DNA of 64,000 nucleotides. It comes from an uncultured Rhodospirillales bacterium (lineage in GTDB: Bacteria; Pseudomonadota; Alphaproteobacteria; Azospirillales; Azospirillaceae). The notes beneath the pieces are model-generated. The model worked only from the letters and a program-made list of their open reading frames with translations, made no database searches and had not been told where the DNA came from. Below, in pieces: positions 8,574-61,939 of this stretch (its first letter is position 1; every line of letters begins with the position of its first letter). The stretch covers positions 1 to 64,000 of the forward strand of contig CAIZDL010000065.1 in assembly GCA_903931735.1 (NCBI GenBank), in the 5' to 3' direction. A program made the translations under genes and the position numbers.

Positions 8574-10361
8574 TCACTCTTTTGCGAGCAGCCCGCGCAG
8601 GCGATCGATCAGCGAACGGAATGGGTGGGCCGGCGCGTTTTCCTCCGTCCTGATCAGCAGGCCGACTTCTGTGATCTCCAGGCCGAGCATATCGACCACG
8701 ATCAGGTCGACCGGACCGATGCGCAGCCGGTCGCCCCGGCCGGCGCTGGGGCCGATGCGCTCCTTGATCAGGCCGCCAACGGTCATACCCGGAACCGGGG
8801 TCTCGATCGGGATATCGTAGGCGCGGGCCAGACCTTCCACCGGCGTCGTCCCGCTGACGATAAAGTCTCCCTGATCGCGGTTGGCGAAGGCGGCGGGGGA
8901 TTTGTGGCGGCGGGAGAACACGCGGTCCACCGCCAGGGCTTGTTCCGGAGGCGTCAGCACCAGCACGACATCGCCGATGTGCAACCGGTCCATGTCGTGG
9001 GTCGAGATGACGGTGCCGGTCCGGATCACCGAGACCAGCCGCGCCCGCTCGGGGATTTGCAGCCGCGCGAACGGGTGATCGGCCGCCCGGCTGTGGGGCT
9101 TTACGGTATAGGCGACCAAATCCCGGTCGGTTTGCTGCACCATGTCGAATTCAAGCCGGTCGGCCGCCTCGGGCGTGGGGGCGAGGGCAACGCCGAGCCG
9201 GCGCGCCATCCAGGGGGCGGTCCAGCCCTGAAGCGACAGCGACACCAACACCACCACGAAGGCGGCGTTGAAAAAGATGTGCTGCGAGTCGATGCCCATT
9301 AACCCCGGAACCAGGGCCAAAAAAATTGGCACCGCGCCGCGCAGCCCAACCCAGGATGCAAAGAGCTGTTCGCGCCAGCTAAAATCGAAAGGCGCCAGCG
9401 CCACCACCACCGCCACCGGCCGGGCGACGAAAATCAGCACCCCCGCGATGCCCAGCGCCAGCCAGCCCTGGGCTACCAGCAAATGCGGGCTGACCAGCAG
9501 CCCCAGCAGCAAAAACATCACGATTTGGGCCAGCCACATCAGCCCATCAAAGAAGCGGCAGATCAGTGTCCGTGCCCGTACGCGCCGGTTCCCATAAACG
9601 ATGCCCGCCACGTACATGGCGAGATAGCCGCTGCCGCCCAGCAGCGCCGTGCTGCTAAAGCATAAAAGGCAAAGGGCGAGGGCCAGAATTGGATAGAGCC
9701 CGGCCGCCAGTTCCAGCCGGTTGGTCAGCACCGACAGGGCGACGCCGCCCAGCCAGCCCAAGCCTAGCCCAAGGCCCATTTGCAGGGCAAAGTCTTCCAG
9801 CACGCTCCAGCCCGGGTCGGCGTTTCCGGCCTTGATCAGGGTGACGCAGGCCATGGTGAGAAAGATGCCCATGGGATCGTTGCTGCCGGACTCGACCTCG
9901 AGGGTCGCGCGCAGCCGGTCGCGTAACGAGACGCCCTGCCGGCCGAGCATCATGAACACGGCAGGGGCATCGGTGCCGGCGACGATCGCGCCCATTAGGA
10001 AGGCTGGCAGCGGGGCGAGATGGAACAGCCAATGAGCCCCGGCGGCAACGATGGACGCCGTGATCAGCGTGCCGAGAGTGGCGAGCGACAGCGCCGGCGC
10101 CCAGGCCGAGCGGAGCGTTTGGTAAGGCGTGCGCAACCCGCCATCGAAAAGGATGATGGCCAGCGCCGCGTTTCCGATCAAAAATGACAATTCGATGTTG
10201 TTAAAAACGATGCCGCCCGGGCCTTCTTCGCCTGCAATCATGCCGAGGCCAAGGAAGGTCAGCAGCAGCGGTGCGCCGACTCGCGCCGACAAAAGCCCGG
10301 CGATGATGCTGGCGAACAACAGCAATGATCCGATCAGCAAGCCGACCAGCCCGCCGGTCAT
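8574..10361 (-). CDS. K+(Na+)/H+ antiporter, NhaP2/CvrA type
   Basis: About 595 residues. The N-terminal ~390 residues contain many hydrophobic helices typical of CPA1 cation/proton antiporters, with GLGMIAGEEGPGGIVFNN and VAGTDAPAVFMMLGRQGVSL, the latter containing the family's TDAPAV-type motif. It is followed by a TrkA-C/RCK-C-like domain (HPFARLQIPERARLVSVIRTG) and a C-terminal CorC/HlyC-like module (PGMTVGGLIKERIG). The track ORF begins 103 codons earlier, but the ATG at 10361 follows GAGGGA and starts the first membrane helix (MTGGLVGLLIGSLLLF), so I use it. Expected role: inner-membrane potassium efflux and pH or osmotic homeostasis. Transcribed divergently from the histidine kinase. 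Confidence 0.93.
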   Translation of the reverse strand: MTGGLVGLLIGSLLLFASIIAGLLSARVGAPLLLTFLGLGMIAGEEGPGGIVFNNIELSFLIGNAALAIILFDGGLRTPYQTLRSAWAPALSLATLGTLITASIVAAGAHWLFHLAPLPAFLMGAIVAGTDAPAVFMMLGRQGVSLRDRLRATLEVESGSNDPMGIFLTMACVTLIKAGNADPGWSVLEDFALQMGLGLGLGWLGGVALSVLTNRLELAAGLYPILALALCLLCFSSTALLGGSGYLAMYVAGIVYGNRRVRARTLICRFFDGLMWLAQIVMFLLLGLLVSPHLLVAQGWLALGIAGVLIFVARPVAVVVALAPFDFSWREQLFASWVGLRGAVPIFLALVPGLMGIDSQHIFFNAAFVVVLVSLSLQGWTAPWMARRLGVALAPTPEAADRLEFDMVQQTDRDLVAYTVKPHSRAADHPFARLQIPERARLVSVIRTGTVISTHDMDRLHIGDVVLVLTPPEQALAVDRVFSRRHKSPAAFANRDQGDFIVSGTTPVEGLARAYDIPIETPVPGMTVGGLIKERIGPSAGRGDRLRIGPVDLIVVDMLGLEITEVGLLIRTEENAPAHPFRSLIDRLRGLLAKE

Positions 10362-55216: not shown

Positions 55217-56350
55217 ATGAACATCACCATTGAACGCGCAGCCCTCCTCCGCTCCCTTGGACATGTCCAGAGCATCGTCGAGCGACGGGGCACCATCCCG
55301 GTGTTATCCAACGTTTTATTGAAGGCGAAGGGGTCGGAGCTGTCTCTGGCTGCGACCGACCGGGACATGGAGATTGTGGAAGATGTGCCGGCGGTCGTGA
55401 CCCGGCCGGGGGCGACCACCGCACCCGCCCATACCCTTTATGAGATCGTCCGCAAGTTACCCGATGGCGCTCAGATCGAGTTGGACTGTAATAACGGCTC
55501 ATCGACGTTGACATTGCGCTCGGGGCGGTCGCAGTTTAAACTCGGCTGTCTGTCTCCCGACGAATTTCCGCAGCTTAGCGGTGCCGGCTTTCCTCATAAG
55601 TTCGATCTGCCGGCGGCAGCGCTTCGGGCGTTGATTGATCAGACCCGATTCGCCATTTCGACCGAGGAGACCCGGTACTACCTCAACGGAATTTATATTC
55701 ACGCCGGCCGGGGCTCGATTGGCGGCGGGCCAGAGGTGGGGGTGCTGCGCGCCGTCGCCACCGACGGCCATCGCCTAGCCCGAATCGAGGTCGCGCTGCC
55801 CGAGGGGGCGGTGGCCATGCCGGCCGTGATCATTCCGCGCAAGGCCGTGGCCGAGGTGCGCAAGCTGATCGATGAGGCGGCGGCGAATATCGAAGTTTCG
55901 CTTTCGGAAACCAAGATCCGCGTCGCTTTCGACTCGATCGCCGTTACCTCGAAGCTGATCGACGGCACCTTCCCCGATTATGAGCGGGTGATCCCGGTGG
56001 GCAATGAGCTGGTGATGGAAGCGCAGCCCAAGCCCTTTGCCGCTGCGGTGGATCGGGTTGCCACCATTTCCAACGAGAAAAGCCGGGGGGTGAAGCTCGT
56101 TCTTCACCGCGACACGCTGACGCTATCGGTCACCAGCCCCGACGCCGCCAGCGCTACCGAAGAGATTGAGGTCAAATACAGTGGCCCGCCGCTGGAAATC
56201 GGCTTCAACTCCCGTTATTTGCTCGATATCCTTCAGCAAATCGAGGGCGATGTCGTGCGCGTCAACCTCGCCGAAACCGGCGCCCCCGCCATCATCCGCG
56301 ATATCGCCGGCAGCGGCGCGCTGTTTGTGTTGATGCCGATGCGGGTGTGA
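55217..56350 (+). CDS. dnaN: DNA polymerase III beta subunit (sliding clamp)
   Basis: A 377-residue clamp of three repeated domains. MNITIERAALLRSLGHVQSI opens domain 1; ATDRDMEIVEDVPAVV, CLSPDEFPQLSGAGF, AVATDGHRLARIEVALPEGA and LIDGTFPDYERVIPVGNELV are conserved clamp segments; the C-terminus ends PMRV as in E. coli-type clamps, where PMRL forms part of the protein-binding cleft. It encircles DNA and tethers polymerase. Its own promoter is possible (see 55156). Downstream, the usual recF is displaced by two other genes. Confidence 0.98.
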   Translation: MNITIERAALLRSLGHVQSIVERRGTIPVLSNVLLKAKGSELSLAATDRDMEIVEDVPAVVTRPGATTAPAHTLYEIVRKLPDGAQIELDCNNGSSTLTLRSGRSQFKLGCLSPDEFPQLSGAGFPHKFDLPAAALRALIDQTRFAISTEETRYYLNGIYIHAGRGSIGGGPEVGVLRAVATDGHRLARIEVALPEGAVAMPAVIIPRKAVAEVRKLIDEAAANIEVSLSETKIRVAFDSIAVTSKLIDGTFPDYERVIPVGNELVMEAQPKPFAAAVDRVATISNEKSRGVKLVLHRDTLTLSVTSPDAASATEEIEVKYSGPPLEIGFNSRYLLDILQQIEGDVVRVNLAETGAPAIIRDIAGSGALFVLMPMRV

Positions 56351-56442
56351 TGGGCGTTTGTTGTCATAGAGTATATTTTGTGTTGACGTTTGGGGGCGCG
56401 CGGGTGCAGACTAGCGACTGAGCTTATCTGTGGGAGGCAGAA

Positions 56443-57054
56443 ATGTTTGGTACCGAGGTGGTTTGTCCCGTTACGGTGAAAAATAACGAGATTGGTTGGC
56501 TGGAGCCAATAATGTTACAATGGGCCGTTTATATTAAAGAATATTGCAGAGCCATAGAGGGCGATGTGCCCTATGATTATACAGAGCGGGCTCTCGTAGG
56601 CATTCTTTCGGCGGCGGCCTGGGTCAAAGGTCACGCGTCTATTGAAGAATATCAGGTGATGAAGGAGGGGAACGTCGGACGAGCAGATTTATTTATTATG
56701 TCGATAGGAAACATGTCCAGTGTTTCCGTGGAAGCAAAAAAAGGGAGAATTCAGGCCTGGAAAGATGGATGTTCAATTGATGAAAGTCTTGATCGCGCTA
56801 ATGAAGATGCGCAAAAAGTAGATGACGGTGACGTATCGGTTGGGGCGGCATTTTACCTCGTTTCTTGCGATAAAGATGGCTATGATCTTAAGATCATACT
56901 GGCAAAACTAAAGGCAATGACCCCAGGCGTTCATTTATTGGCTTGGTGCTTTCCGAAGGAAAGAAGGAGATTCTCTCGGGAGGAAACGCCAGATGACTTT
57001 CTACCTGGTGTAGTTCTTGCGGTCAGGGTCGCTAAACAGCTGAAGCGTTCTTAA
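56443..57054 (+). CDS. Hypothetical protein with PD-(D/E)xK nuclease-like motif, inserted between dnaN and recF
   Basis: A 203-residue protein in clearly more AT-rich DNA than its neighbours, with AT-ending codons. It lacks a signal peptide or membrane helix. The central segment MKEGNVGRADLFIMSIGNMS then SVSVEAKKGRIQAW has the spacing D...ExK of PD-(D/E)xK nucleases: Asp in GRADLF and Glu-x-Lys in EAKKGR. The N-terminus (TERALVGILSAAAWVKGHAS) is helical. ATG 56443 is preceded by GGGAGG. I do not recognise a family. The composition and the position in a normally conserved replication cluster suggest horizontal gain. Confidence 0.6.
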   Translation: MFGTEVVCPVTVKNNEIGWLEPIMLQWAVYIKEYCRAIEGDVPYDYTERALVGILSAAAWVKGHASIEEYQVMKEGNVGRADLFIMSIGNMSSVSVEAKKGRIQAWKDGCSIDESLDRANEDAQKVDDGDVSVGAAFYLVSCDKDGYDLKIILAKLKAMTPGVHLLAWCFPKERRRFSREETPDDFLPGVVLAVRVAKQLKRS

Positions 57055-57112
57055 TTCGGCGCGGGTGTGATGGTTGGGGATGTGGGCGTCTTAGTGCACC
57101 GCCCCGCGCGGT

Positions 57113-58120
57113 TCAGCGCACCGCCAGGGCGCCGAGGCAGAACACGCCGTAGAGCCAGCCGACTTGCGACAGCGCCATGCCGCCGACCGCACCCCGGCGG
57201 AAGGCTTGAAACAAAAAGCAAATCGAGAGGCTGGTCACTGCCGCCGCCACCAGCAAGGGCGCATCCAAAAGCCAGGGGGTGAAGAACAGGCCAAACGCGG
57301 TGGGGATGGTGGCCTGGATCATCATGGCGCCGCTGATATTGGCCAGGGCCAGACGCTCTTTGCCTTGGCGCACCCAAATCAGCGCGTTCATGGTCTCGGG
57401 GAGTTCGGTCGCGATCGGGCTGAGCAGCAACGCCGTGAGTTGCGGGCTGATCCCCAGCCAGGGGCCAACGGCCTCCAATTGGCCGACAAACAGCCGGGAT
57501 GCGAGGAAAATCACCACCGTCGCGGCAATGGTCTGAAGCAAAATCCAGCCGATGTGCGGGGCCTCGTCGTGAGGGCGGATATTGAGCGGCTCAAGCGCGC
57601 CTTCATCGGCGCCTTCGTCGTTCCCGCCTCTCATTTCGGTCCAGAAATAGCCGGCGTAAGCGGCCAAAAAGACCCAGCCCAACCAGGGCTTGATGGAAAA
57701 AGCGACCACGCCAAGGGTGATTTTGAACACAAAAATGCCCATGAACCAAGCCTGATCGCGGCTTAGCCGGGTGCCGTCGACCTCGACCAGCGCGCCCGGT
57801 GCCCGGCCCAGCCGTTGCCCATAAACCAGCAGCGAAACCCCAACGATGGCATAAGCCACCGTGCTGAGCGCCAGCGGGCCGCCCAACGCTGCGCCGATGC
57901 CGATTTGCTTTTGGGCGTCGTGGTCGCTGAAGGCGGTGGCAACCAGCGTTACCACGCTTTCCGGCAGGGCGGTGCCGAACGCCGCGAGAATGGTGCCGGT
58001 GGCGGTTTGGCTGATATCCAGCCGCCGCCCGAGCCACTCGACGCCGTTCACAAACATCTCGCACGAGAGATAAATCACGCCCGCCGAGGCGAGAAGCAAC
58101 AAAAACGCCACGACCATCAA
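57113..58120 (-). CDS. Sodium:calcium antiporter-like membrane protein (CaCA family)
   Basis: A 335-residue protein with two homologous halves of about five membrane helices each. The alpha-repeat signatures are ATGTILAAFGTALPESVVTL and LTALLLSPIATELPETMNAL (both contain the P-E pair that binds cation). It would exchange Na+ or H+ for Ca2+ or K+; the ion is not predictable. A charged loop (EMRGGNDEGADEGALE) joins the halves. Transcribed opposite to recF, it also separates dnaN from recF. ATG 58120 or 58117 may start it. Confidence 0.9.
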   Translation of the reverse strand: MMVVAFLLLLASAGVIYLSCEMFVNGVEWLGRRLDISQTATGTILAAFGTALPESVVTLVATAFSDHDAQKQIGIGAALGGPLALSTVAYAIVGVSLLVYGQRLGRAPGALVEVDGTRLSRDQAWFMGIFVFKITLGVVAFSIKPWLGWVFLAAYAGYFWTEMRGGNDEGADEGALEPLNIRPHDEAPHIGWILLQTIAATVVIFLASRLFVGQLEAVGPWLGISPQLTALLLSPIATELPETMNALIWVRQGKERLALANISGAMMIQATIPTAFGLFFTPWLLDAPLLVAAAVTSLSICFLFQAFRRGAVGGMALSQVGWLYGVFCLGALAVR

Positions 58121-58253
58121 GGCACCCGGAAAATCAAAGGAAAGCGGCGCGACGCTACGCCGGCCCTTTGCGAAAAATCAAGGGGATACCGAGGCGGTCC
58201 GGCATGATACAGTGGGTATCGTCGTTGCCAACACCGCTTTGGTCGTCATCATC

Positions 58254-61939
<3,686 letters not shown>

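Follow-up and report, generated by a model that had tools for sequence, protein, structure and literature searches.

A lone gene inserted behind dnaN encodes a putative PD-(D/E)xK-fold nuclease from a mobile, undescribed family and is a candidate single-gene defence

The window analysed here, a stretch of 64,000 nucleotides from an uncultured Rhodospirillales bacterium, carries directly behind dnaN a gene (positions 56443–57054, plus strand) that is shown by the comparisons described below to be foreign, intact and part of a mobile, solitary family with conserved residues. The encoded protein of 203 amino acids is best explained, with a probability of about two in three, as a small single-domain, metal-dependent PD-(D/E)xK nuclease of an unclassified, horizontally moving family in which one gene would suffice for defence against phages or other DNA from outside. 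Relatives of the gene move as single genes and occur in prophages, integrons and defence islands, which makes a one-gene anti-phage nuclease the most likely function.

The open reading frame of 203 codons is intact, starts with ATG and is preceded at a distance of 5 nt by a Shine-Dalgarno sequence GGAGG (56433–56437, plus strand). Its GC content is 46.1%, lower than in any other 612-base stretch sampled over the 64-kb window (mean 62.4%, sd 4.6). GC3 is 0.431, as compared to 0.743–0.798 in dnaN, recF, gyrB, dnaX and the neighbouring antiporter gene. The earlier note on this DNA, made from the sequence alone, had described an AT-rich gene with a good ribosome site behind dnaN and an Asp...Glu-x-Lys signature in its product. 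Both descriptions hold; the signature corresponds to Asp82 (D82; 56686–56688) and to the E97-A-K99 motif (E97, 56731–56733; K99, 56737–56739), which are conserved along with E48 (56584–56586) and R80. A strong local GC skew of about +0.25 is found at 56250–56999, a segment that overlaps the inserted gene, and elsewhere in the inspected part the skew stays mostly within 0.1.

In agreement with the earlier note's remark that this locus is normally tight, dnaN and recF are adjacent in two congeners (G001 and G004) and tightly spaced in several other members of the bacterial family. The gene does lie between dnaN (DNA polymerase III beta clamp with Pfam DNA_pol3_beta domains; 55217–56350, plus strand) and recF (58212–59372, plus strand), but it is not alone there, since an antiporter gene of the Na+/Ca2+ exchanger family (57113–58120, minus strand), missed by the earlier note, also intervenes. 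An 89% identical copy of the latter stands beside recF in the closest congener (G002), whose dnaN is 83% identical to that of the window. Antiporter, recF and gyrB are collinear between G002 and the window from 57114 onward, and the dnaN side of G002, located on a separate contig, is collinear with the window up to 56353. Judged from this gene order, the antiporter is native to the sub-lineage of the window genome and does not belong to the insert. A joint insertion of antiporter and nuclease gene was rejected on the same ground, its position beside recF in G002. Directly after dnaN, G002 carries a ParE-like toxin gene (Pfam ParE_like match; L026, 1554–2089), preceded by a short open reading frame that is probably its antitoxin. 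The presence of different small inserts in the window and in G002 suggests that the dnaN 3' end has received varied cargo in these two genomes.

The gene is bracketed by an exact 13-bp direct repeat, GCGGGTGTGATGG. Its left copy (56341–56353) includes the final codons and the stop codon of dnaN, and its right copy (57061–57073) starts six bases past the stop codon of the gene. The 3.48-Mb genome holds three copies of this 13-mer, two of them being the flanking ones. Homology to G002 ends at 56353, the last base of the left repeat, and resumes at 57114. As the right copy runs on as GGTTG, like the sequence that follows dnaN in G002, it can be regarded as the native continuation, with the insert situated between the two copies. 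The simplest reading of the repeat would be an insertion at the dnaN stop codon in which the dnaN 3' end was duplicated. The inserted unit deduced from the repeats, the homology break and the composition is AT-rich and would span 56354–57073 (plus strand), which amounts to 720 bp counting one repeat copy. No terminal inverted repeats were found at its ends and no transposase within it, the gene being its single open reading frame; the unit lacks these marks of an insertion sequence or transposon. Integron cassettes are able to enter genomes at attG sites (PMC12901181), and the window copy might accordingly have come from an integron. This origin was rejected, as neither an attC site nor a cassette array was found: inspection by eye revealed no attC-like element downstream of the gene, where just 6 bases separate the stop codon from the repeat, and single-strand folding detected no unusual fold there; across putative attC sites, the z-values of such folding spread from 0.06 to −2.65. 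No defence gene, prophage or integron was recognised beside the gene at this locus; apart from the insertion itself, the context in the window adds nothing to the case for defence.

Models from Pfam, NCBIfam, PADLOC and PHROGs gave no match to the protein, even with permissive thresholds, which bears out the earlier description of an unrecognised family, and a literature search found no paper naming it. Since curated models cover described subfamilies only, the missing match bars assignment to a known subfamily and leaves the fold unaffected. In all, 21 relatives were assembled from whole genomes, plasmids, genome contigs (searched with a profile from a three-row alignment) and viral contigs. 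The family is undescribed, although the kind of protein is well known. It was found in 9 of 399 genomes of the phylum and in 4 of 82 of the bacterial family, both counts including the source genome itself, and in each carrying genome among those searched it is present in one copy. The check on sister strains that the earlier note had proposed finds the gene missing from the four congeners compared and from almost the whole family, so that the conservation in all relatives named there as a refutation is not observed. In the tree, the three other members from the same bacterial family group with G738 in a clade with 99/99 support and the window copy falls outside, so that the natural reading would be an acquisition independent of the same-family members, to be taken with caution because the window row forms a long branch.

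In the alignment of 22 rows, E48, A58, R80 and D82 are invariant, and E69, G79, E97, K99, P171, P188 and G189 are conserved in at least 90%. One relative (L047, 7951–8604) retains an intact frame but has lost the ExK motif, which reads QAT, and is probably catalytically dead. Two close orthologues (L056 and L057) display a dN/dS of 0.036, indicating strongly purifying selection, and a value of about 0.09 was obtained between the Vibrio and Thioploca members, with synonymous sites near saturation. Given the 21 homologous proteins and the purifying selection between L056 and L057, the frame at 56443–57054 can be taken to be more than a chance open reading frame. The two Thioploca copies (L058, 7793–8853; L059, 7792–8848) differ from the other pairs, for which dN/dS is 0.04–0.09: they share 94% of their coding nucleotides and 88% of their amino acids and give a dN/dS of 0.62, possibly a sign of diversifying or relaxed selection.

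The fold was predicted with AlphaFold (AF2). An earlier model based on six sequences reached a pLDDT of 62.6, with 42–46 for the other four models; its fold matches were meaningless and it was replaced by a model built from a nine-sequence alignment. The latter shows a pLDDT of 81.5 and a pTM of 0.82, all five models ranging from 74 to 82. It consists of a helix (residues 48–61, with E48), three strands (64–74; 77–87, with D82; 92–104, with E97 and K99), a further helix (115–123) and a final strand (131–142), and this helix-strand-strand-strand-helix-strand succession is the core order of PD-(D/E)xK enzymes. D82, found in all 22 rows, and E97 and K99, found in at least 90% with L047 as the exception, are positioned on adjacent strands. 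A Foldseek search of the PDB returned mostly PD-(D/E)xK enzymes, each individually weak and with unrelated folds also among the matches. The superfamily members among these matches include Cas4 SSO0001, Bax1, AF1548 (probability 0.98), EcoRV and HindIII, and further R2 endonuclease domains, DrdV, MGME1, SfiI and BglI. No PDB match reached an E-value of 0.001 or below (best E 3e-3 to 0.4), and TM-scores were low, at most 0.38 when normalised to the query. Among the top ten matches to viral models are a PD-(D/E)XK nuclease (probability 0.98) and an Mrr-domain protein (probability 0.99). The structure prediction asked for by the earlier note thus agrees with the nuclease resemblance that it had noticed, in core order and in the superfamily bias of the matches, with none at E 0.001. 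Together with the invariant residues, the match pattern makes a PD-(D/E)xK nuclease fold well supported for the modelled protein.

Comparison with characterised members of the superfamily (EcoRV/HindIII, Cas4, AF1548, MGME1) shows that the window protein shares the predicted core order and the E-D-ExK residues. In contrast to these, it has no curated HMM match, its identity to the structural matches is about 7–21%, and the GRxDL motif as well as the C-terminal W/Y-x-F-P ... PG motifs are specific to its own family. The only sequence likeness, weak, far below thresholds and conferring no membership, was seen to PDDEXK_9 (PF08011; two members, best E 0.1) and, with the family profile, to SfsA (PDB 4dap, E 0.41), which belongs to the PD-(D/E)xK superfamily as well.

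The fold could also fit a nuclease of DNA repair or recombination, a housekeeping enzyme of the Holliday-junction-resolvase or Mrr/RecB-like type that is only incidentally mobile. The matches include the repair-type nucleases Cas4, MGME1 and Bax1, and we take the E...D...ExK layout to resemble that of archaeal Holliday junction resolvases. However, a housekeeping role sits badly with a gene that is rare and patchy even among congeners, that turns up as prophage cargo and within a cassette array, and whose relatives lie near restriction and other defence genes; this explanation is considered unlikely.

That the family is horizontally mobile is well supported by its patchy occurrence and its carriage by prophages and an integron cassette array. 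Viral contigs yielded no relatives when scanned with the first alignment or with any of four subfamily alignments; with prophage-type alignments, three independent prophages carrying the gene were recovered (the near-identical L069/L070, L071 and L074). Phage records gave no match with either query. All three prophage members are situated at the portal gene (phrog_68, E 1e-155 to 1e-117), next to the terminase and in a P2-like late-gene layout, with two phage genes separating portal and family member in L071. In P2-like prophages of E. coli, the cos-proximal interval from gpA to the portal gene gpQ, home of old and tin, is an antiviral hotspot (Rousset et al., PMC9122126). The portal side of this interval is present in the three prophages and the gpA side was not seen; at that position L069 has an integrase and L074 apparently ends at a host gene. 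Unlike these members at the gpQ-type portal gene, the window copy is chromosomal.

Plasmid searches yielded a single carrier, a Vibrio plasmid, on which the gene lies within an array of small genes in one direction with repeated cassette-end (attC-like) sequences. Upstream of the family member, this array contains a TIR-domain gene (L005, 1441–2178), possibly a defence cassette. Integrons are well known to harbour anti-phage genes (PMC12409362), and the Vibrio copy conforms to this setting, whereas no attC site or array is recognisable at the window copy. The two Thioploca copies, 88% identical, have different neighbours and are each surrounded by dispersed repeats; elsewhere, both genomes encode an integron integrase (TIGR02249, 436 and 308 bits). 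These copies are probably members of cassette arrays, too.

Defence genes are located near 6 of the 16 chromosomal loci, a set that includes both Thioploca copies, and the other ten have no recognised defence neighbour. The six loci contain, respectively, an Hhe/PDC-S37 helicase on a tRNA-Pro-linked integrase island, Avs3a, an MkoC-like helicase, PtuA with PtuB (Septu), a C5 methylase with TdeIII, and HsdR with a piece of HsdS. At one Thioploca locus (L059), the adjoining TdeIII-type restriction enzyme (8913–9413) comprises 167 amino acids as compared to a model of 242 positions and is probably truncated; the C5 methyltransferase gene follows it. When all genes up to about 6 kb away were scanned, a few proteins being omitted from each set, 88 PADLOC models matched near the 16 chromosomal homologues and 3 in control regions placed arbitrarily in the same genome set. 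This contrast supports an association with defence but provides no clean statistic, since one protein can match dozens of models, some of them generic (helicases, regulators), and the numbers overstate independence. Apart from generic enzymes, no neighbour family recurs across the loci, and it is thus most likely that the family member works as a single gene without partner.

A lone nuclease gene without methylase must somehow spare its host, and it could do so as a toxin triggered by infection, that is, a DNase or RNase of abortive defence instead of a restriction enzyme that attacks phage DNA. The toxin-antitoxin-like pair behind dnaN in the closest congener would fit such a role, yet the family shows no conserved antitoxin or sensor partner, and 203 residues offer no sensory domain, which renders a toxin quite improbable. 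Even less is to be said for a selfish, free-standing homing-type endonuclease that promotes its own spread into empty sites. PD-(D/E)xK homing enzymes exist, and a lone nuclease gene, unrelated intergenic sites and a bracketing repeat would all suit one. However, homing endonuclease genes are expected at a recurrent homologous target, whereas the chromosomal relatives sit between unrelated genes without any such target; every searched genome holds a single copy; and homing copies flanking DNA and alone would not create a 13-bp direct duplication, so that homing appears very unlikely. That the gene is a non-functional passenger left behind by a mobile element, as its foreign composition, its restriction to a single strain and the lost ExK motif of L047 might suggest, is scarcely credible for a copy in which frame and ribosome site are intact and no conserved residue is lost, and whose relatives, the Thioploca pair excepted, show dN/dS values of 0.036–0.09.

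The window protein, interpreted as a one-gene defence nuclease, would fold as a PD-(D/E)xK core whose metal-binding and catalytic site, as prediction and conservation suggest, is made up of E48 (first core helix), D82 (second strand) and E97-x-K99 (third strand). The family is carried by prophages and in the integron array, and the window copy was inserted at the dnaN stop codon with the 13-bp repeat bracketing it. The gene would be an accessory that genomes acquire sporadically, and in its place behind dnaN it would be expressed with the help of its own ribosome site. The nuclease would cut invading nucleic acid, of phages or of other origin, and would tell self from non-self without a methylase, for example by a modification of the DNA, a structure out of the ordinary or a state set off by infection. 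Recognition of this kind is likelier than plain type II cutting, since an enzyme without methylase must spare the host. Small type II restriction enzymes are similar in size and fold, and the neighbourhood of one relative includes a type II methyltransferase. This methyltransferase, however, has its own TdeIII restriction enzyme, no methyltransferase partner is conserved, and none adjoins the gene in the window; with no methylase partner beside the window gene and none recurring at the loci of the relatives, the protein was not assigned to the type II restriction enzymes.

The earlier note had suggested a defence gene or a degenerate restriction factor. The latter is unsupported, for the catalytic residues are intact, relatives are under purifying selection and no methylase partner is conserved. 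The former, although not proven, is the best reading of the prophage portal site, the integron array and the defence neighbourhoods. In the DefensePredictor study, 24 assayed units with remote homology to known defence proteins but low scores, including six PD-(D/E)XK nucleases, yielded one defender (PMC13092281). In view of this ratio, the fold alone would not justify a claim of defence, which we infer from the genomic context of the relatives. The broadest form of the proposal is evenly balanced between true and false: an undescribed, widespread single-gene anti-phage family of PD-(D/E)xK nucleases of about 200 residues, which restrict phages without methylase or partner and move as a lone gene, found on P2-like prophages, among integron cassettes and at chromosomal sites, the window copy having arrived by a route that left a 13-bp target duplication without transposon ends.

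Behind dnaN, one gene has been acquired cleanly, together with an apparent 13-bp duplication. If the defence reading is true, it adds to the single-gene nucleolytic defences an unclassified family that is not seen by Pfam, NCBIfam, PADLOC or PHROGs, and raises the question of how a nuclease of 200 residues without methylase or partner spares its host. Moreover, one and the same gene, found on its own among prophage cargo, in cassette arrays and in intergenic sites between housekeeping genes, would then exemplify defence genes that travel outside defence islands.
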